Virus record (IMG/VR): IMGVR_UViG_3300034166_000013
Coordinates: 1 to 24,043 of that record
From: a virus
Direction: 5' to 3' (one strand)
Length of the DNA stretch: 24,043 bases
Position 1 is the stretch's first letter, and each line of letters opens with the position of its first letter. Position numbers and translations under genes: made by a program. Below, one piece after another: positions 2,946 to 23,302 of the stretch. The notes beneath the pieces are model-generated. The model searched no databases. It saw only the letters and a list, made by a program, of their open reading frames with translations, and was not told the origin of the DNA.

Positions 2946-4925
2946 TTATGCGATGGCGAGGAAGATGTAGGACGCGCCGTTGACGTTCAGATTTTCCGTT
3001 GTTTCATTAACGACAAACCCTGTGCTGTCTGTGTCAACCGCATCTTGTCCGGTTTGCTCTGCAGCCGTGGTGTTAAGTTCAAGGAAGGGATCGTTGCCCG
3101 ACACAATTCCTCGTGCGCTATCAAACACAACCCAATCACCGGCCGCATTCGTGCGCTTAATAAGCACGAACCGAGCGCCGCCCGTGAATCCGCAGTTAAT
3201 CGTTTGACTGCTTCCGTTGCCGGTATAACTTCCGACCTTGGAAACACCTATAACGGTTGAGAAAAGGTAGGCGACGTATGTCTCTGCACTCAAGTTCTGA
3301 TCGGTAACACCAACTCCAAAAGTGGTTGATGTCGGTGTTAACCAAGAACCAGAAAATGTTTGCGCCGCTGATCTGCCGCCAGTAGAGGAAGAAAACAGTT
3401 CAAGATATTGGTCTACACCCAAAGAAGATGCATACACAGCGCCATACGTTGCGCCATTCCTTCTCTTAGTAATGATTAATTCAGGGGTAACGCCAAGGTT
3501 ATGATTCAGCGTCAGGTTAGAACCCGTCCCCGTATAGCAAACCACATCAAAGAAGCCGGGGGCGCGTTTGAAGAAATGCCCGACATAAGTTTGGCCGCCG
3601 CCAAACCCGCTATTTAAATTTCCGTTATTGTTGCTATACCCCGTCATATTAAACGTATTACCAGATTCAGAATTTTCTGCGTCTGTCACGTTTGTGGCTA
3701 AAGTAACAGCCAAGCCCCTCAAAATATCAGTTGCGAATGTCTTGGCGTGTATAGCGCCGCGATTTATACCAATAAACATATCAGGGAAAAAGCCTGTTGT
3801 TATTTGCTGAGTACTTCCTGTGCCAGTCCATATATTAGGATTAAACACACTCGTCCCCGTCGTCGGAGTTTTCATCGGGCCGCGACGGATGGCGATGTAG
3901 ATGTAGGTGTTGCCGGAGTTATTCCAAAAAGTGCCCCCGCCCTCAAGAATGAAGCCAGTAGCAGTTGGTGCGATTTGCGTAAGACCACTAGCCCCGTTCC
4001 ATGACACCTCGTCAGTTGAACTATTAGGAACAAGGGCGAAATCTCCCCCTGTACCGTTTACCATGCCCCGCATGACATCCACCAACTGCCAATCACCAGT
4101 AATAGAGGTATTTTTAATCAATACCCATTGAGGTTCATAACCGAGAGTGACCGCATTACCGGCTGCGCCTGTACCCGTATAAGACCCACACGAAATCACA
4201 TTGTCCGTACCCGTCAGGCCAAAGCCTCCTGCGTTGTGGGCGAAGAGGTAGGCGACGTAGGTGCCATTATTAAAATTTAACTCTAGATCGTTATCTGCCT
4301 GAAATGTTGTACTTGTTGGGTTCCAGTCAAAATCAGTAGAAGTGTTGGCGGCATTTTGGGAATCTAGACGAATAAACCCATATCTTCCGCTATTGATTGA
4401 ACGATGAAACACAGTCCAAATACTTGTTGTATCTGTGCGCTTGACAATAATGCAGCCAGGAACAGAACCAAGACTGTGTGAAATAGTGCGATTGCCAGTT
4501 CCATCCCCCGTCCACGTCACCACATCAAAGAACTTCGGCTGCTTGCGGAATGTCCATGAGACGTAAGAGCCGGTGCTTTCATTTACTTGACTTCCACCGG
4601 CAAGAGTAAATCCGTTAGCGTTAAACGCTGTAACACGATTAGTAGATGTGGATTCAGCGTTTGTGAGGTTGCTATTGATGTACTTCGTTGATCCACGAGT
4701 TGTATCAACAAGTTGATGGTCGTAAACAGATGAAATGCGGCTCTTCAGCCAAACCAACCCACCCTTCGTGGACAGATCAATCCCGTTGGTGATGGTCTGC
4801 GTAGAGCCGTTTCCGGTGTAGAGCCACGTCGAGAAACATGACTCTATATATACAGCCTCGCCAGTCTTGGCGAATTCACCAAAACCCTGTGCAGAAGCCG
4901 CGCCTTTTGTTTCAATTAGTGGCAT
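2946..4925 (-). CDS. Tail fibre / receptor-binding protein with six DUF7483-like repeats
   Basis: This 659-residue protein starts MPLIETKGAASAQGFGEF, a head seen in fibre proteins of many uncultured aquatic phages, and is then built entirely of about six related units of roughly 100 residues. Each begins with a Tyr/Trp-Thr-Gly motif (36-38, 138-140, 249-251, 366-368, 464-466, 567-569) followed by a TI-like strand, has a LIIKR-like strand near the middle and a Trp/Val-Phe/Val-D or H segment, and ends with a YVAYLFA-like strand (near 121, 223, 341, 447, 550, 653). This matches the beta-sandwich DUF7483 type. The likely role is host recognition at the tail. It follows the first fibre gene with AAGGAG five bases before the ATG and precedes the chaperone-like gene. 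Confidence 0.85.
   Translation of the reverse strand: MPLIETKGAASAQGFGEFAKTGEAVYIESCFSTWLYTGNGSTQTITNGIDLSTKGGLVWLKSRISSVYDHQLVDTTRGSTKYINSNLTNAESTSTNRVTAFNANGFTLAGGSQVNESTGSYVSWTFRKQPKFFDVVTWTGDGTGNRTISHSLGSVPGCIIVKRTDTTSIWTVFHRSINSGRYGFIRLDSQNAANTSTDFDWNPTSTTFQADNDLELNFNNGTYVAYLFAHNAGGFGLTGTDNVISCGSYTGTGAAGNAVTLGYEPQWVLIKNTSITGDWQLVDVMRGMVNGTGGDFALVPNSSTDEVSWNGASGLTQIAPTATGFILEGGGTFWNNSGNTYIYIAIRRGPMKTPTTGTSVFNPNIWTGTGSTQQITTGFFPDMFIGINRGAIHAKTFATDILRGLAVTLATNVTDAENSESGNTFNMTGYSNNNGNLNSGFGGGQTYVGHFFKRAPGFFDVVCYTGTGSNLTLNHNLGVTPELIITKRRNGATYGAVYASSLGVDQYLELFSSSTGGRSAAQTFSGSWLTPTSTTFGVGVTDQNLSAETYVAYLFSTVIGVSKVGSYTGNGSSQTINCGFTGGARFVLIKRTNAAGDWVVFDSARGIVSGNDPFLELNTTAAEQTGQDAVDTDSTGFVVNETTENLNVNGASYIFLAIA
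2949..4832 (-). repeat. Six tandem protein-level repeats of about 100 residues in the fibre gene
   Basis: The units start near residues 32, 134, 245, 362, 460 and 563 of the encoded fibre. They share opening (Y/W)TG and closing YVAYLF-like strands but are diverged at DNA level, so this is an old duplication series kept by function rather than a recent DNA repeat. Confidence 0.8.
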
Positions 4926-4934
4926 ACGGACTCC

Positions 4935-5993
4935 TTACTTGAACTGGGTCTGCGAAGCCAACACCGTGAAAGTCGCTGATCCCGTTTTAATGATCGTATA
5001 AACGTAGGCATCGATGCCGCTTGCATTACCCGCAGCAGGAGCGGTTCCTCCTTGCCACTTCGGAGTGACGCTAGTTCCGTCCACTTGAACCGCGCTGTTG
5101 TAGTACGCAGTAGACCCTTGAGTCACCAAGAAAGCAACCGTTACGCTCTGGCCCGTACTCATGGCCGTATTCAGACTTGTACCACTCGAGGCGCGGAAAT
5201 TCACCGTCCAATTCGCAGAAGCATTGGAGGTGTAGTAAATGACCGATTGCGTGGTCACATCAAAATTGATCGTGCCCGTTGCGGCAGTAGCCGAGACAGT
5301 CGTTGTCTCTGCTGCATCATTCAAAACCATCGCCAGGGAGCTAGACGAACCGCTAAATGTCTGTGTTGCGGTGAAGGTCTGAGCGACGCTCAATCCGGCA
5401 ATGGTCGTGGACGCATCAGGAAATGTGGCCGTCCGGCTTGCCGTCAGCGTTCCAGGAGTCAGCGTGACCCGATAAGAAGACGATCCACCAGCTCGACCCG
5501 CAATAATGATCCCGTCCTCGGACGATGTGGCCGTGCCGAAGGTCTGTCCCGTGGCGTTGAAGAAGGTATTAGCACCCGTGAAGGCGTTATTTGCCGAGGT
5601 GCTGACGTTTCCACCAGACGCCCAACTCAGCACTCCAGAGCCGTTCGTTGAGAGAACCTGGTTCGCCGTGCCATCTGCGCTAGGAAGCGTCCATTGCACA
5701 TTAGAAGCGATGGAAGCAGGAGCCATGAACCCGACATAGTTCGTGCCGTTGTCGGTGTCCTCGTACAGCTTCAGATCGGCTCCAGAGGCCGAAGTACCCT
5801 TGGCCGCGAGCGTTCCTACAACCGTGATGTTGTCACCCGCAGCGCCGGACTGGAAGTCCTTGAGCTGGGCCATAAGCTCACGAATGGCATCGTTGATACC
5901 ACTCGGGGCACAGCCCTCCGCGATGTTGATTCCATCGATGTCGGTGTTATCACCAGCGGTGGTCGAAAACTCTGAGATTTTTGCGCGTGGCAT
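4935..5993 (-). CDS. Tail fibre protein, N-terminal attachment type
   Basis: The 352-residue product begins with an N-terminal block (about 1-50) with NTDIDGINIAEGCAPSGIND followed by AIRELMAQLKDFQ, common at the head of phage fibres and thought to attach the fibre to the tail. It is followed by Ser/Thr/Ala/Gly-rich sequence with motifs typical of fibre shafts: WTLPSADGTANQVLSTNGSG (about 101-120), two TFTGANTFF/TFTATQTF-like repeats, and a beta-rich C-terminus with YVYTIIKTGSATFTVLASQ. No catalytic residues are evident. It is a likely adaptor or shaft fibre, with the repeat fibre downstream as the distal receptor binder. AAGGA precedes the ATG. Assignment by sequence style; the exact place in the tail is inferred. 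Confidence 0.8.
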   Translation of the reverse strand: MPRAKISEFSTTAGDNTDIDGINIAEGCAPSGINDAIRELMAQLKDFQSGAAGDNITVVGTLAAKGTSASGADLKLYEDTDNGTNYVGFMAPASIASNVQWTLPSADGTANQVLSTNGSGVLSWASGGNVSTSANNAFTGANTFFNATGQTFGTATSSEDGIIIAGRAGGSSSYRVTLTPGTLTASRTATFPDASTTIAGLSVAQTFTATQTFSGSSSSLAMVLNDAAETTTVSATAATGTINFDVTTQSVIYYTSNASANWTVNFRASSGTSLNTAMSTGQSVTVAFLVTQGSTAYYNSAVQVDGTSVTPKWQGGTAPAAGNASGIDAYVYTIIKTGSATFTVLASQTQFK

Positions 5994-11183: not shown

Positions 11184-12598
11184 CGACGGCCCCTCCCGAC
11201 GATGTTCACATCAACCCCGGCCATCGTTGTCCAGTTGCCCGTAGGAACAACCTTGATACGGTGGTACTTGCCGGAGCTTCTGAGGGAGACACGGTTTTCA
11301 TCACTCGCAGCCACAGCCGTTGAGTAGGTGATCGTGTCGTCCAACATCTCGCGAGATGCTACCGCCACGGTAGCAGAGCCATTGTCGATTTGCGGACGGG
11401 CCAAAGTGATAAGGCTTGCAGTCGCGCTCAGGTCGCCAGTCTCAATGAATGCAGACATCGGCTGGCCCTCGAAGGTGACGATCCTGGCCCCGGAAATCCC
11501 CGCAAACACCAATTTCCCACCCAGCCATTGCCGTGAGTCCAAAGAAACGGTGAGCGCGTCAATCGAGGCAGAGAACGAATCCAATCCCTCAAGAGTCGTG
11601 GATGCGGTGGCCGCAGATGCGATGTAGGTGGCAGCAGTTGTGCCGTAAGACCAGCGGTTTAGTTGCCAGTTGTAGATCAGCAGGGAATACCCGCCTGTGG
11701 TGTTTTGATAGCACCAGATCACAACCTTCTTGATCGGATCGACAGCAGAGCTGAAGTTCGCATAAGCAGGCTCAAGATCATCCCAGAACCAGCGGTCAAC
11801 CTTCTCAGCACCAATCGGCGTGACCCTTTGGCCATCGCACATATAGAACCCGTCATCAGATAGGAAGAAGGTCATGTTTCCGTACTGACAGATCGATCCA
11901 GGCTCATAGCACCCGATCTCGCGTGAGATGGTGTCGAACTGGAAGAACAGCGGAGAGCCTACATAGCTCATCCGAACGATGGACTTCTCCAGCAAGACAA
12001 GCCCAAACTCTCCACCAGTTATCCCCTGAATATCCCCGCCGTCAGGAATGTCCTGGAAGTCCGACTGAGATGCTCCACCAGAAGTCCAATCTGTCTCGTC
12101 ATTGATGTCAGACCATTGGACTCGGTTCGGATAAGAGGCGATGTTTGCCGCGACAACGAAGTCGCGAACCACCGTGATGTACTCAGCAATGGGAGCAGCC
12201 GCAGCGACATCAGCGAATGCGGTACTTGAGTTCAGAGTGAATGACTGAATCTTCTGCGAGTTGTTTGTTGCAAGGAGCGCATCACCAAACTGGACAAACT
12301 TCCACTTTCCAGTACCCGTGTATCCACCTGTTTTTGACACATCACTCAGGTTGCGAGTGCCAGAGTCGTACTTGAACAGCTTAGTGGCTCCACCAGCAAA
12401 AAGAGTCGATGTGCTGCTGATCTTTCCAGAATAGATCGCGGTCAGGTTCTCGGAAGCATTGTTGGAGTAGTTCGCCAATGAAGGGATCGGCCCATATCCA
12501 ACCTGTTGAGGATAGACGTTGTATGCGGCCTGGAGCGCACCAGACACACCAGGCTGATCTGGAAGCCACTCACCGAACACAATCTTTGTTTCTGCCAT
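11180..12598 (-). CDS. Tail nozzle / packaged-DNA stabilisation protein (P22 gp10-like)
   Basis: This protein has 472 residues, rich in beta strands with regularly spaced short motifs such as LFAGGATKLFKYD, DALLATNNSQKIQSF and NRVQWSDINDETDWT (159-171), which resemble blades of a beta-propeller-like nozzle. NPRVQWS/DW motifs, DIPDGGDIQGI, and LSDDGFYMCDGQRVTPIG (247-263) are typical of the podovirus tail-hub family that includes P22 gp10. A further motif, LDSFSASIDALTVSLDSRQW (339-358), recurs in part in the neighbouring repeat protein. The likely role is to close the portal channel after packaging and to form the tail nozzle with the adaptor. AAGGGGAG precedes the ATG, and its stop overlaps the next gene. 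Family by recognition; exact tail position inferred. Confidence 0.75.
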   Translation of the reverse strand: MAETKIVFGEWLPDQPGVSGALQAAYNVYPQQVGYGPIPSLANYSNNASENLTAIYSGKISSTSTLFAGGATKLFKYDSGTRNLSDVSKTGGYTGTGKWKFVQFGDALLATNNSQKIQSFTLNSSTAFADVAAAAPIAEYITVVRDFVVAANIASYPNRVQWSDINDETDWTSGGASQSDFQDIPDGGDIQGITGGEFGLVLLEKSIVRMSYVGSPLFFQFDTISREIGCYEPGSICQYGNMTFFLSDDGFYMCDGQRVTPIGAEKVDRWFWDDLEPAYANFSSAVDPIKKVVIWCYQNTTGGYSLLIYNWQLNRWSYGTTAATYIASAATASTTLEGLDSFSASIDALTVSLDSRQWLGGKLVFAGISGARIVTFEGQPMSAFIETGDLSATASLITLARPQIDNGSATVAVASREMLDDTITYSTAVAASDENRVSLRSSGKYHRIKVVPTGNWTTMAGVDVNIVGRGRR

Positions 12599-12608
12599 GT
12601 CGCTCCCC

Positions 12609-13166
12609 TTAAGCGAGACTCCATGTATTCGTTGGGAGTGTCACGTTTGTCCAGTTGAAGTTTGGCAGCGTCACATCTGCCCACTCGTCACCCTGCTCTG
12701 ATGCGTCACAGGTCACAGCCGCAGAGGCTGTGATTGAAGCCACTCCTCCGGCAACATAAGTTCCGTTTGCCGTAACTGTTGCAGATGCCGTGATTGATGC
12801 AGAACCGTCTGCGGTGATGCCGCCATTAGCGGTTACCGTTGCAACGCAAGTGATCGCGGCAGCGCCAGGAATGACAAGCTGCGCGTTTGCCTCACAAGTG
12901 CCAGATGCCGTGATGGATGCGCTCGCATTTTGGACAAGCGTTCCATCGGCAGAGAAACTGGCAGATGCTGTTATCGAGGCAGCGGCGTCTTGAACCCGTA
13001 TTCCGCTTGCCGTAACACTCGCCGACGCTGTGATAGCGCCATCCCCATCCCACCGAGTAACGCTTGTGATGTAAAGCGGAGAATCAAGCGTTAGCGTGAG
13101 GTCATCTAGACTCGCCTTGAGGTTATCAAGGGAGTCTATTGTCCACGGTGGGTAGAGATCAGCCAT
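12609..13166 (-). CDS. Repeat protein with an exact 20-residue period, probable virion component
   Basis: The 185-residue protein contains six tandem units with conserved Ile-Thr at positions 45, 65, 85, 105, 125 and 145, a strict 20-residue spacing. The unit reads roughly A-SITASA-VTANGT-V. It is Ala/Thr/Ser/Val-rich with Gly/Asn turns, as expected for a beta-solenoid. The N-terminus (residues 13-29) carries LDNLKASLDDLTLTLDS, which matches a motif in the nozzle protein downstream. The C-terminus has DVTLPNFNW and NVTLPTNTW, a short duplicated Trp motif. No known function is recognised. It lies between a 128-residue virion protein and the nozzle gene, with a TAATG start overlap, so a tail or head-surface role is likely. 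Confidence 0.7.
   Translation of the reverse strand: MADLYPPWTIDSLDNLKASLDDLTLTLDSPLYITSVTRWDGDGAITASASVTASGIRVQDAAASITASASFSADGTLVQNASASITASGTCEANAQLVIPGAAAITCVATVTANGGITADGSASITASATVTANGTYVAGGVASITASAAVTCDASEQGDEWADVTLPNFNWTNVTLPTNTWSLA
12702..13046 (-). repeat. Six units of a 60-base coding repeat
   Basis: Residues 41-155 of the gene at 12609-13166 repeat with a period of exactly 20 codons. Words such as GATGCTGTGAT or GATGCCGTGAT recur on the plus strand, so there is both protein and DNA similarity. Confidence 0.8.
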
Positions 13167-13552
13167 TACGTCAAGGTGACAGACAGCGATCCAGCGGCGA
13201 TGCGGAACACATCACCAGTAGCGATGGTCTTGGACGCATCCAAAGCGGTGTGATACAGCAGATTCCCGCTAGAAGAAGCATCACGCAGCCCAATGTAGGC
13301 CACCGTACCCCACGAACCCGTGGCTTGCGGGAACTCCACAGCCGAAGAGTTAGAGGTCGCGCCGTTCGAAGGAGCCGAGAAGGTCACACTCTGACGCGCA
13401 TATCCGTTGCCACTCACCTCAGTACCCGTATCCGCATCAGTCGGGTCTGTGGTGTATAGCGCCACATAAACCGTTGCAGGACTCGTGTAAGAAGTGTTGC
13501 GGAGAGTCGCGTTTACAAGCGCGTTCTCCAAGTAATTCGACATTTCAGCCAT
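13166..13552 (-). CDS. Conserved virion protein, 128 aa (fibre/decoration type)
   Basis: The sequence begins MAEMSNYLENALVNATLRNT, continues with VYVALYTTDPTDADTGTEVS (about 29-48), then VEFPQATGSWGTVAYIGLRD (about 72-91), and ends with GDVFRIAAGSLSVTLT. This whole pattern is shared by a widespread family of small phage proteins variously labelled tail fibre or virion protein. It is predicted to be all-beta, with no enzyme motif. It sits between the adaptor and the repeat protein. AGGAG lies about 7 bases before ATG at 13552, which is preferred over the inner ATG at 13543. Its stop overlaps the next start as TAATG. A place at the head-tail vertex or head surface is possible, but unproven. Confidence 0.72.
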   Translation of the reverse strand: MAEMSNYLENALVNATLRNTSYTSPATVYVALYTTDPTDADTGTEVSGNGYARQSVTFSAPSNGATSNSSAVEFPQATGSWGTVAYIGLRDASSSGNLLYHTALDASKTIATGDVFRIAAGSLSVTLT

Positions 13553-13554
13553 TT

Positions 13555-14175
13555 TTATCTCCTAGCCAAAGTCATGGTGAGAGGAACACCTGCGTATTCT
13601 CCCCGATCATCGGAAGCATTGATAGAGTCAATTGCCCTCTGATACAGAGCCGCCCAGGTCGCAAGACGCTCATCGTTCATCAGATAAGGCTCTGCCTCAC
13701 CCAAAGAAGCGTAAAGCAGCGCATCTGGGCAGTTTGCCAAGAACGCATTTGAGGTGTTGGTGTCGCTCAGATAGGCCGGGGCTGCGTAGTACAGCATTCG
13801 GACGTTGTAGGCCGAATCCGGGATCGGGGCGAACTGGAAGTCATCTGCCAAAACCGTGTATTTCCTCGGAACACCCGTGGTTGTCACATCGGCATTGCGA
13901 TAGAAGATGTTGGGAGACAGGTACTCTAGGGCATAAATTGGAGTCGTGTTCAGGTGGATGTCCCGAATCTCCAGAAAGTCATTCGGCAATGAGACTGTGG
14001 CGGTGTTTGCCGTCATGGTCGCATAAACCAGCTTAGACATCTGGCGAATCCGCAAGTCACGGCGAAGTCGGTTCTCCGCGAATGTGATGAAGTCAGGAAT
14101 CTGACTGGTCAGATCAGACCGAGCGAGGTAGTTTGCTACCGTGGTCTTGAGATCGGAATAGGTGGAGATAGCCAT
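13555..14175 (-). CDS. Head-tail adaptor protein (SU10/P22-gp4-like, T7 gp11-like role)
   Basis: The protein has 206 residues from ATG at 14175, which makes a TGATG overlap with the preceding stop; a TTG one codon earlier is less likely. GGGGAGG sits five bases upstream. The N-terminal helices read TYSDLKTTVANYLARSDL and IPDFITFAENRLRRDLRIRQ, the hallmark start of podovirus adaptor proteins, followed by LPNDFLEIRDIHL and a beta-rich middle, then a helix-rich C-terminus with CPDALLYASLGEAEPYL, also typical. Twelve copies usually bind under the portal and provide the docking surface for the nozzle. The family identification is firm by motif, and the place in the gene order, between capsid and nozzle genes, agrees. 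Confidence 0.85.
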   Translation of the reverse strand: MAISTYSDLKTTVANYLARSDLTSQIPDFITFAENRLRRDLRIRQMSKLVYATMTANTATVSLPNDFLEIRDIHLNTTPIYALEYLSPNIFYRNADVTTTGVPRKYTVLADDFQFAPIPDSAYNVRMLYYAAPAYLSDTNTSNAFLANCPDALLYASLGEAEPYLMNDERLATWAALYQRAIDSINASDDRGEYAGVPLTMTLARR

Positions 14176-14498
14176 CAAATCCTCCCCGGACGGGTGCGGA
14201 ATGCGCGGTTGTCAGGATGGTTTAGCCAAGCCTTGAAACGGGCCTGATCAAGAACATGAAACCCTCGCATGATGCCCTTTTGGTTGAGATCGTCAATCAC
14301 CGATAAGGGAATAGAAGCGATCTTATTGCCCAACAGGTCATCACTCCACCGAGCGCGTTCATCATAAGCATTGAATTGCTTACGATTGGACTCAACGATC
14401 CCGCCAACATCCTGGGCGCTCTCAATGATGATGCCCCCATTGTCATCGGCGTGAGCCTTGCGGTGGACTACCTTGATGTCTTCTAAATTGGTGTTCAT
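14175..14498 (-). CDS. Conserved phage protein of unknown function, 107 aa
   Basis: This short protein is of a type often found after the capsid gene in phages of this kind. Recognisable parts are QDVGGIVESNRKQFNAYDER (29-48), KIASIPLSVIDDLNQKGI (59-76) and the ending KAWLNHPDNRAFRTRPGRI. It is predicted to be mixed helical with no TM or enzyme motif. It lies just downstream of a terminator that follows the capsid gene, so it should be transcribed at a lower level than capsid. The stop is shared in a TGATG overlap with the adaptor start. A head-completion role would fit the position, but nothing in the sequence proves it. Confidence 0.75.
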   Translation of the reverse strand: MNTNLEDIKVVHRKAHADDNGGIIIESAQDVGGIVESNRKQFNAYDERARWSDDLLGNKIASIPLSVIDDLNQKGIMRGFHVLDQARFKAWLNHPDNRAFRTRPGRI

Positions 14499-21727: not shown

Positions 21728-22059
21728 GAGATCACCATCTCCAGCGGGTTGCCATTTGCCCCCGTCACCTCAAGTCGGTCATTCTCCCGCCATTGGGCGC
21801 GGGTCTTGAGCCAGAAAATAGCCGCCGTGGTGTTTCCATTCTTGGCTTGCTGATACAGAGTCTGCGCCACAGAAGCATTGGCCTCAATCCGGCCCTCGTC
21901 CAGTTCTTTCCTGTAATGCTTGCGAAGGGTGTCGTCGGTGATTTCTAACTTGGCAGCGATGTCCTCGTGCCTAGTGCCTACCGCGCTAAGCATCTTTACG
22001 ACCTTTCGGTTTTCATCATTTGGCTTATGGGCTACGCCTTGCCCTGAAGTCTTATGCAT
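21706..22059 (-). CDS. Terminase small subunit
   Basis: This 117-residue protein has an N-terminal helix-turn-helix, EDIAAKLEITDDTLRKHYRK (32-51), which would recognise the packaging site, followed by helical oligomerisation segments with VAQTLYQQAKNGNTTAAIFW (64-83) and LKTRAQWRENDRLEVTG. This pattern of HTH plus AxxxLyxxAxxGnxxAaifwLKtr is shared by many phage small terminases. Its position directly before the large subunit agrees. The ATG overlaps the methyltransferase stop by 8 bases without a clear ribosome site, so its translation is probably coupled to that gene. Identification firm. Confidence 0.9.
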   Translation of the reverse strand: MHKTSGQGVAHKPNDENRKVVKMLSAVGTRHEDIAAKLEITDDTLRKHYRKELDEGRIEANASVAQTLYQQAKNGNTTAAIFWLKTRAQWRENDRLEVTGANGNPLEMVISWANEKS

Positions 22060-23302
22060 TTTGTAATCCCGAAGGTTCCGTAAGTTCGCTATAGGTTTGG
22101 CCTGTTGACTCTAGTGTTGCTTGCTTGCCTGTGAAGTCCTGCCAGCGTTTTACTATGACATCGCAATACTTGGGGTCTAGCTCCATCAGGCGGGCGATGC
22201 GGCCCGTCTTTTCGCAGGCGATGAGCGTGGAGCCGGAGCCGCCGAACAAATCCAAAACGATCTGGCCGCTCTTACTGCTGTTGCCGATAGCGCGCTCTGG
22301 CAGTCCGACCGGCTTTTGAGTCGGATGGAAGTCGTTTCGAGCTTCCTTCTTTAGCTCCCATACAGTCTTTTCATCAGTCGGCCCAAACCACTGCGGCGAC
22401 GCCCCTTCTTTGAAGGCGTATATGCACGGCTCGCAGTTTGGTATGTACTGCGACATAAATGCGCCAAGACCAGACCTGACCTTATACCACTGGATGACCG
22501 CCCGAAGTTTCAACGATAGGTTTGAAAAAGCCGCAAATGTTTCGACGCTCTTGCCTGATGCAAACCAGACATAAAAGGCGGCATGGTCGTGCGTGACAGT
22601 ATGAGCAACAGAAAGCGCCCCGTAAAACAGACCCGTCAGGTTTTCCCCGTCAAGAGCATCGTTCTTAATCTGTTGCCGCTTTTTGGTATTGTGGCCGCCT
22701 TCGTATGAAACCCCATACGGTGGGTCGGTGAACACCATGTCGGCCTTCTGACCTGCCATCAACTTATCCACAGCATCTACGCTCGTGGAGTCCCCGCACA
22801 TCAGGCGGTGCTTTCCTAGCACCCAAACATCCCCAGGTTTTGTGACTGGCTCATCAGGGACTTCAGGCGTTGCGTCCTCGTCCGTCAGCCCTTCTGTCGG
22901 CTCGATCTTATTCAGCAGAGCATCGATCTCGTCTGCATCGAAACCTAGGCTTTCCAGGTTGACCCCGCCATCCAGAAGCTCACTTAGCTCCAGGCTTAGA
23001 AGTTCGGCCTCCCACCCTGAGTTAAGGGCGATCCTGTTGTCTGCCAGGATGTAGGCTTTCCTCTGGGTCTCGGTGAGATGCTCTAGACGGATGCAGGGGA
23101 CTTCCTTGAGGCCCAGCTTCCTTGCCGCGGCGAGTCTCCCATGCCCCGCTATAACCCCGTTGTCCTTGTCGATCAGGACAGGGTTGTTGAACCCAAACTC
23201 TTTTATGCTTCCGGCGATCTGGGCGATCTGCTCGTCGCTGTGGGTTCTTGCGTTCCGTGCGTATGGGATTAACACGGAGATGTCGATCTTTTCGATGTTC
23301 AA
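22052..23302 (-). CDS. ParB-like domain fused to an adenine/N4-cytosine-type DNA methyltransferase
   Basis: The 416-residue protein has an N-terminal ParB/sulfiredoxin-like domain (about 1-90), with the NARTHSDEQIAQIAGSIKEF helix and GVIAGHGRLAAARKLGL (49-65). Residues 155-395 are an amino-methyltransferase of the beta order: DPPY catalytic motif at 193-196, then HPTQKP (326-331), and the AdoMet-binding DLFGGSGST at 351-359. This order and the DPPY suit N6-adenine more than N4-cytosine. The start is TTG at 23302 with AAAGGAG five bases away. It is probably a phage-borne solitary methylase; no restriction nuclease is adjacent. Roles could include evasion of host restriction or marking DNA for packaging. 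Target sequence unknown. Confidence 0.92.
   Translation of the reverse strand: MNIEKIDISVLIPYARNARTHSDEQIAQIAGSIKEFGFNNPVLIDKDNGVIAGHGRLAAARKLGLKEVPCIRLEHLTETQRKAYILADNRIALNSGWEAELLSLELSELLDGGVNLESLGFDADEIDALLNKIEPTEGLTDEDATPEVPDEPVTKPGDVWVLGKHRLMCGDSTSVDAVDKLMAGQKADMVFTDPPYGVSYEGGHNTKKRQQIKNDALDGENLTGLFYGALSVAHTVTHDHAAFYVWFASGKSVETFAAFSNLSLKLRAVIQWYKVRSGLGAFMSQYIPNCEPCIYAFKEGASPQWFGPTDEKTVWELKKEARNDFHPTQKPVGLPERAIGNSSKSGQIVLDLFGGSGSTLIACEKTGRIARLMELDPKYCDVIVKRWQDFTGKQATLESTGQTYSELTEPSGLQNA

Follow-up and report, generated by a model that had tools for sequence, protein, structure and literature searches.

A protein of 185 amino acids encoded directly before the nozzle gene of a podophage is probably, to judge from its sequence, the string in a tail fibre of beaded build; the beads would be Gp80 proteins, and the number of its repeat units would set the length of the fibre. 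The observed basis of this reading consists of the exact repeats, the change of length by whole units, a Gp80 gene close by in many lineages, the relatedness of that bead to the fiber I subunit of phage GP4 and an LD motif common to string and nozzle. The reading is tempered by the consideration that the products of neighbouring genes need not bind each other.

The window, meaning the whole stretch of viral DNA analysed, is 24,043 bases long. On its minus strand it carries a set of podophage structural genes, comprising SU10-type proteins for portal, capsid and adaptor, and the nozzle. The interval between adaptor and nozzle is filled by two small genes (13166..13552, then 12609..13166 in gene order). 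The genes of this region, together with a fibre-like gene elsewhere in the window, are as follows.

13555..14178, minus strand: tail adaptor (SU10_adaptor; PF24175, E=8.8e-37)
13166..13552, minus strand: Gp80 bead of 128 amino acids, homologue of GP4 fiber I gp80 (PF23140, E=4.2e-52)
12609..13166, minus strand: open reading frame of the repeat ('string') protein, 185 amino acids
11180..12598, minus strand: nozzle protein of 472 amino acids (PDB 8zkk, 'nozzle gp16', E=1.3e-11)
4935..5993, minus strand: fibre-like protein of 352 amino acids, whose N-terminus resembles a trimeric short-fibre docking domain (by eye, unscored)

The start of the string gene overlaps the stop of the Gp80 gene by one base (TAATG). 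A stop/start overlap of this kind is the usual mark of translational coupling. The string gene stands directly before the nozzle gene, as does the short tail fibre gene gp16 in SU10 (PMC9509320). The first-pass annotation of the window had known of no podovirus component like this one described next to a nozzle gene. That statement is not upheld, since the slot is a fibre slot in related phages, in which LUZ24 gp57 likewise lies, and the preceding gene encodes a fiber I bead.

The string protein contains a 40-residue N-terminal part, six 20-residue units and a Trp tail. The repeat region is located as follows.

12687..13046, minus strand: six exact 20-residue units, residues 41-160

The span originally assigned to the repeats, 12702..13046, corresponds to residues 41-155 only. 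Units 1-3 read GDGAITASASVTASGIRVQD / AAASITASASFSADGTLVQN / ASASITASGTCEANAQLVIP and units 4-6 read GAAAITCVATVTANGGITAD / GSASITASATVTANGTYVAG / GVASITASAAVTCDASEQGD. The ladder of Ile residues at 45, 65, 85, 105, 125 and 145, which had been reported to run through six units without insertion, is borne out by the sequence; the other Ile residues of the protein lie at 10, 33, 56, 99 and 117. None of 20,000 shuffles of the repeat region produced an Ile ladder of six steps, and the column agreement among the units was 78/120, where shuffling gave 43.9 on average (s.d. 2.5) and never more than 54. From 252 distinct units the consensus GSASITASATVTANGTIVQD was derived, in which Ala occupies positions 3, 7, 9 and 13, Ile or Val 5, Val 11 and Gly or Ala 15. 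This is the alternation that an extended beta segment would show if one of its faces were small and apolar.

A first scan of viral contigs found 53 loci related to the string gene. Two later scans took 80 each, the best of 298 relatives in one case and the best of 586 in the other, and the unit-number frequencies are consequently biased towards close relatives. There were 151 unique repeat proteins among the matches listed. The LD and PPW classes within them were assigned with simple patterns. In the 77 listed proteins with the PPW N-terminus of the window string, every unit step was 20 residues (478/478), and length differs by whole units only, with six units in 51 proteins, ten in 19, nine in 6 and five in 1. 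Among the other 74 listed repeat proteins, 478 of 537 steps were 20 and the other 59 were 19, 21 or 22; counted over 73 relatives with other N-termini, these 59 stand against a total of 528 steps. In the comparison of unit number among relatives that had been proposed for this protein, nearly all close relatives among the matches listed had 6, 9 or 10 units. In an early listed set of 55 unique proteins, the first C-terminal Trp was located at exactly the six-unit distance in 46 and the ten-unit distance in 8; in the remaining protein (L001) one of the units contains a Trp, and a count of nine units was judged from its Trp spacings. The idea that units are required in pairs, as for Gp80 dimers, or in threes, as for trimers, was dropped, as counts of 4 to 10 and 14 exist. 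Derivation of the 10-unit forms through duplication of a four-unit block is likewise not advanced, the identity at offset 80 being top or near-top in several proteins and not in most. Some members of the family carry misleading names: Venkman gp51 (L056, 2482-3198) is a 'putative E3 ubiquitin-protein ligase HERC6' in the public record, and the string protein at L001 6001-6831 is named 'serine-rich adhesin'.

Gp80 of the window matches PDB 8jou_a in sequence (E=1.7e-13), and its AlphaFold2 model (pLDDT 92.9) matches the same chain with a Z of 17.3 and an rmsd of 1.5 over 124 residues (Foldseek E=2.3e-7). The title of the 8JOU entry reads 'Fiber I and fiber-tail-adaptor of phage GP4', and the deposit has 10 chains of the Gp80 sequence. 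A published account describes 8JOU_g as a fibril between an adhesin and the tail nozzle collar (PMC13243795). GP4 fiber I (gp80; PDB 8JOU; PF23140) resembles the proposed fibre in having a homologous bead of the same fold and a position near the nozzle collar. Fibres of Gp80 are already known, and the window encodes the Gp80-fold bead that a GP4-type fiber I, a Gp80 chain fibre, requires. Further matches of the Gp80 fold, in the set of PDB 9mt4, 9c39 and 9h4p, are connector and neck chains from the phages Bas63 and Sf14, at a Z of about 10, and a portion of one tail chain from Haloferax tailed virus 1 (Z 8.1). When bacterial genomes were sampled around four of the locus hosts, Gp80 was found in 7/294, 12/82, 12/385, 5/369 and 12/294, draws that overlap in a few genomes and include some matches under the curated cut-off. 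One genome (G1327; L412/L422) contains a 298-residue frame with two tandem Gp80 matches and a 367-residue period-20 protein alongside.

The association between string and bead extends beyond the window. Among the 151 listed repeat-protein loci, Gp80 was adjacent upstream in 86 and lay farther upstream in 15, within 2 kb in 13 of these and at 2-6 kb in 2. The remainder comprised 8 loci with under 500 bases upstream and 42 without Gp80, and none of these 42 belonged to the PPW/LD class as defined by a crude pattern. Venkman, which has such a string, carries Gp80 about 5.5 kb upstream. Around 131 strong Gp80 loci, 20 was the best period (z>=3) in 18 of 83 adjacent open reading frames, compared with 11 among the 178 that lay farther away (Fisher p=3.6e-4), redundancy in these neighbour statistics having been filtered via shared 4-mers only. 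At least seven of the 11 farther frames (L308, L310, L328, L331, L344, L354 and L360) read as repeat proteins like the string, either separated from Gp80 by some genes or missed as adjacent. Of the 47 non-redundant adjacent frames downstream of Gp80, 16 had 20 as their best period (z>=3) and 31, a number that counts against the reading, did not; among the strongly periodic downstream neighbours the mode was 20 (14 frames), with at most 2 for any other period.

Period-20 proteins are located next to Gp80 in BcepIL02 (gp56), MEP401/402, C72C1, PVJ1 and mycobacteriophage UPIE, where gp21 sits upstream of Gp80, and in the genome loci L362, L363, L377, L383, L384, L394, L395, L409 and L422. In PVJ1 the repeats occupy the first 130 residues and are followed by a domain that is baseplate-like by eye; a similar fusion, also judged by eye, is present in L383 with Gp80 alongside. 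The pairing also occurs in L312, and in both L312 and L422 the repeats are fused to another domain. The repeat fusions of L312, L422 and L362 fit a fibre with an adhesin at one end. The period-20 signal near Gp80 is weaker or mixed in JC1, phiM5, CRP-4 and Itty13, and no period-20 protein was found beside Gp80 in Octadecabacter DB virus 2, L361, L365, L366, L385 and many others. In MW202710, HTVC106P, LUZ24 and RHph_Y1_10, which have the nozzle and no Gp80, two frames pass the period filter and neither resembles the string family. The period-20 signals of MW202710 (11672..12985), which reads as an ejection protein, and of LUZ24, an antisense frame, were discarded. A 449-residue protein of period 21 (z 12.3) is encoded upstream of Gp80 in Desulfosporosinus acididurans (L364, 120-1469). 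Putative bead-and-string gene pairs recur with unrelated anchors, in podophages, mycobacteriophages and prophages.

In the proposed fibre, Gp80 subunits would line up along the string to form a beaded side fibre. Each 20-residue unit, as an alternating small/hydrophobic beta segment, would give one bead site, and the unit number would in turn determine the number of beads and the length of the chain. Three Bcep22-like strings read as 11 units against the 10 Gp80 chains of the GP4 deposit, numbers that are near and unequal, the GP4 figure being one of chains only. A broader version, in which this is a general phage module whose repeats are stoichiometric Gp80 sites and a ruler of fibre length, the string being moved between unrelated anchors, is put forward tentatively and has somewhat less than an even chance of being correct. 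Evolution would then have moved the string between copies of the nozzle dock, baseplate proteins and adhesins, in phages of very different bacterial hosts.

The AlphaFold2 monomer of the string (pLDDT 41.4, pTM 0.39, 46 sequences) has strands throughout and no usable fold, a result compatible with folding as an oligomer or in dependence on a partner. No credible match emerged from PDB sequence searches, whether with the string, its profile and a Trp-decad peptide or with two Bcep22-like strings, and Pfam, PHROGs and NCBIfam revealed no recognised fibre or tail-collar domain. The filamentous haemagglutinin repeat (PF05594) is a beta repeat of about 20 residues. The string shares this character, but its score against PF05594 (E=0.0016, 19.5 bits) falls under the curated cut-off of 21.5. 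The first-pass annotation had suggested a beta-solenoid or a rod of stacked beta-hairpins, of defined length. The beta pattern and the whole 20-residue steps agree with a rod-like part, whereas the monomer model lends no support to a self-contained solenoid; disorder, the outcome held to speak against a rod, was not clearly seen, the model placing strands throughout at a pLDDT of 41.

A free-standing beta-solenoid or trimeric beta-rod, serving as a side fibre of fixed length on the nozzle with Gp80 as a mere genetic neighbour, would account for the regular 20-residue period and the alternating pattern. The weak sub-threshold likeness to PF05594 and the fibre slot ahead of the nozzle gene are also in its favour. 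It is nevertheless judged unlikely, given the poor monomer prediction and a Gp80 tie that recurs across unrelated anchors, although an intertwined trimer stays compatible with both.

The two ends of the string carry features of their own, one of which has a counterpart in the nozzle.

13080..13130, minus strand: N-terminal triple LD motif of the string, LDNLKAS-LDDLTLT-LDS, residues 13-29, spacing 7/7
12621..12683, minus strand: C-terminal Trp decads of the string, W162, W172 and W182
11534..11584, minus strand: nozzle counterpart, also a triple LD motif, reading LDSFSAS-IDALTVS-LDS, residues 339-355 (14-nozzle alignment)

When 14 nozzles are aligned, the LD site falls where SU10 has the loop that docks its short fibre (Trp839/847/857), and the LUZ24 nozzle has a Trp triplet of 7/7 spacing at the same place. 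Each Trp of the SU10 loop touches one chain of the trimeric short fibre (PMC9509320). The dock of SU10 nozzle gp17 resembles the window nozzle in having three tandem aromatic/hydrophobic sites at an equivalent place, and differs in spacing, with Trp at 8 and 10 in SU10 and LD at 7/7 in the window; the pre-nozzle slot of SU10 holds an alpha-helical trimeric fibre, whereas that of the window holds a repeat protein (PMC9509320). A loose LD motif was present in 9/14 nozzles versus 75/2,800 shuffled nozzles. The strict motif was found in 190 of 3,421 unique open reading frames compiled, namely 77 repeat proteins, 95 nozzle-like proteins and 18 others, of which two (L061, L062) are nozzles and 16 are repeat proteins of the C72C1 type; among the 3,421 frames, LD triplets are confined to nozzles and repeat proteins. 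In one locus (L296), the repeat protein has LEGLDAFSSSIDSLAISLDSTLW and the nozzle has LEGLDSFSASIDALTVSLDSRQW.

The simplest reading, by analogy with SU10, would be that the trimer dock of the nozzle has been copied onto the string. A second such dock may lie in the Trp decads. The decads are spaced exactly 10 residues apart in relatives with 3, 4 or 6 Trp (PPW class, among the matches listed), one decad is inserted in L008 relative to its neighbours, and the first Trp lies 21 residues after the start of the last unit in 143/151 listed repeat proteins. For the beaded fibre, it is proposed that the string is probably fastened, through the LD triplet at one end and the Trp decads at the other, to trimeric proteins of the fibre or adhesin type. 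This end docking is modelled on the SU10 nozzle, where a tandem triplet of one polypeptide holds a trimeric fibre. The 352-residue protein (4935..5993) is a candidate ligand of the LD/Trp docks. At 2946-4925 the window encodes a 659-residue protein that contains DUF7483 (PF24299), matches a tail-fibre family in PHROGs and is likely to be a distal adhesin. In MEP402 gp62 and MEP401 gp59 (L269, L270), which are adjacent to Gp80, three Trp segments about 14 residues apart are seen terminally by eye, with no decads.

The docks raise the alternative that the protein is a docking adaptor, its repeats a mere spacer and its LD triplet and Trp decads the parts that hold trimeric fibres. The N-terminus is the most conserved part of the protein (30/35 invariant columns fall in residues 1-40), the LD triplet is common to the string and the nozzle dock loop, SU10 holds a trimer through three Trp of one loop, and the distance of the Trp decads from the last unit is fixed, as described above. 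This alternative is quite unlikely to be the whole account, as FSQ-type strings have no LD triplet and BcepIL02 gp56 and UPIE gp21 have neither triplet by eye. Strings without the triplets still pair with Gp80, which marks the pairing of repeat and Gp80 as the common part. As to the ends of the string, the adaptor reading and the bead-and-string reading agree and are compatible. A capsid or head decoration component in place of a tail fibre, as the PHROGs label of Gp80 relatives (phrog_240, 'head protein') would imply, is very improbable beside a solved relative titled fiber I of GP4 and a gene order of adaptor-Gp80-string-nozzle.

Several known systems can be set beside the proposed beaded fibre. 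In GP4, gp81 is said to link gp80. If so, the string would belong to a known kind of protein, as a variant set apart by its LD/Trp docks and by units of exactly 20 residues. The gene pairs BcepIL02 gp55-gp56 and JC1 gp53-gp54 are like the window in that Gp80 is followed by about 11 units of about 20 residues; the Bcep22-like units, however, are looser (steps up to 24), and by eye the proteins have other termini, without the LD triplet or Trp decads. The neck fibre of Anabaena phage A-1(L) is, like the proposed fibre, a chain of small beads with a larger distal protein; its bead trimers are arranged head to tail, and a repeat string is not described in the accessible part of the report (PMC10966104). 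No family of strings that combines exact units, length changes by whole units and a dock copied from the nozzle came up in the literature searched, and the phrase '20-residue repeat' with phage terms was not found among the literature matches listed.

The string would be a component of the virion. Annotation of BcepIL02 gp56 as virion-associated is on record. Two observations count against this. The JC1 virion proteins, in the accessible part of the report, include the Gp80 homologue gp53 and do not list the adjacent repeat protein gp54 (PMC9144972). JC1 gp54 has 11 tryptic peptides of 7-30 amino acids and is not peptide-poor; the string of the window, for its part, contains only 3 Lys and Arg residues in all. 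In the phiM5 record, Gp80 is flagged as found in particles and the next gene carries no flag.

If the bead-and-string reading is true, a widespread set of unannotated phage proteins would turn out to be strings that fix how long a beaded tail fibre grows, a simple rule would link sequence to fibre length, and the fibre dock of the nozzle would have been copied onto a second virion protein. The natural 6-, 9- and 10-unit variants put the ruler idea within reach of a direct test. Elsewhere in the window, at 22052-23302, a ParB-like N-terminus and a DNA methyltransferase (DPPYG motif) are joined, as judged by eye.
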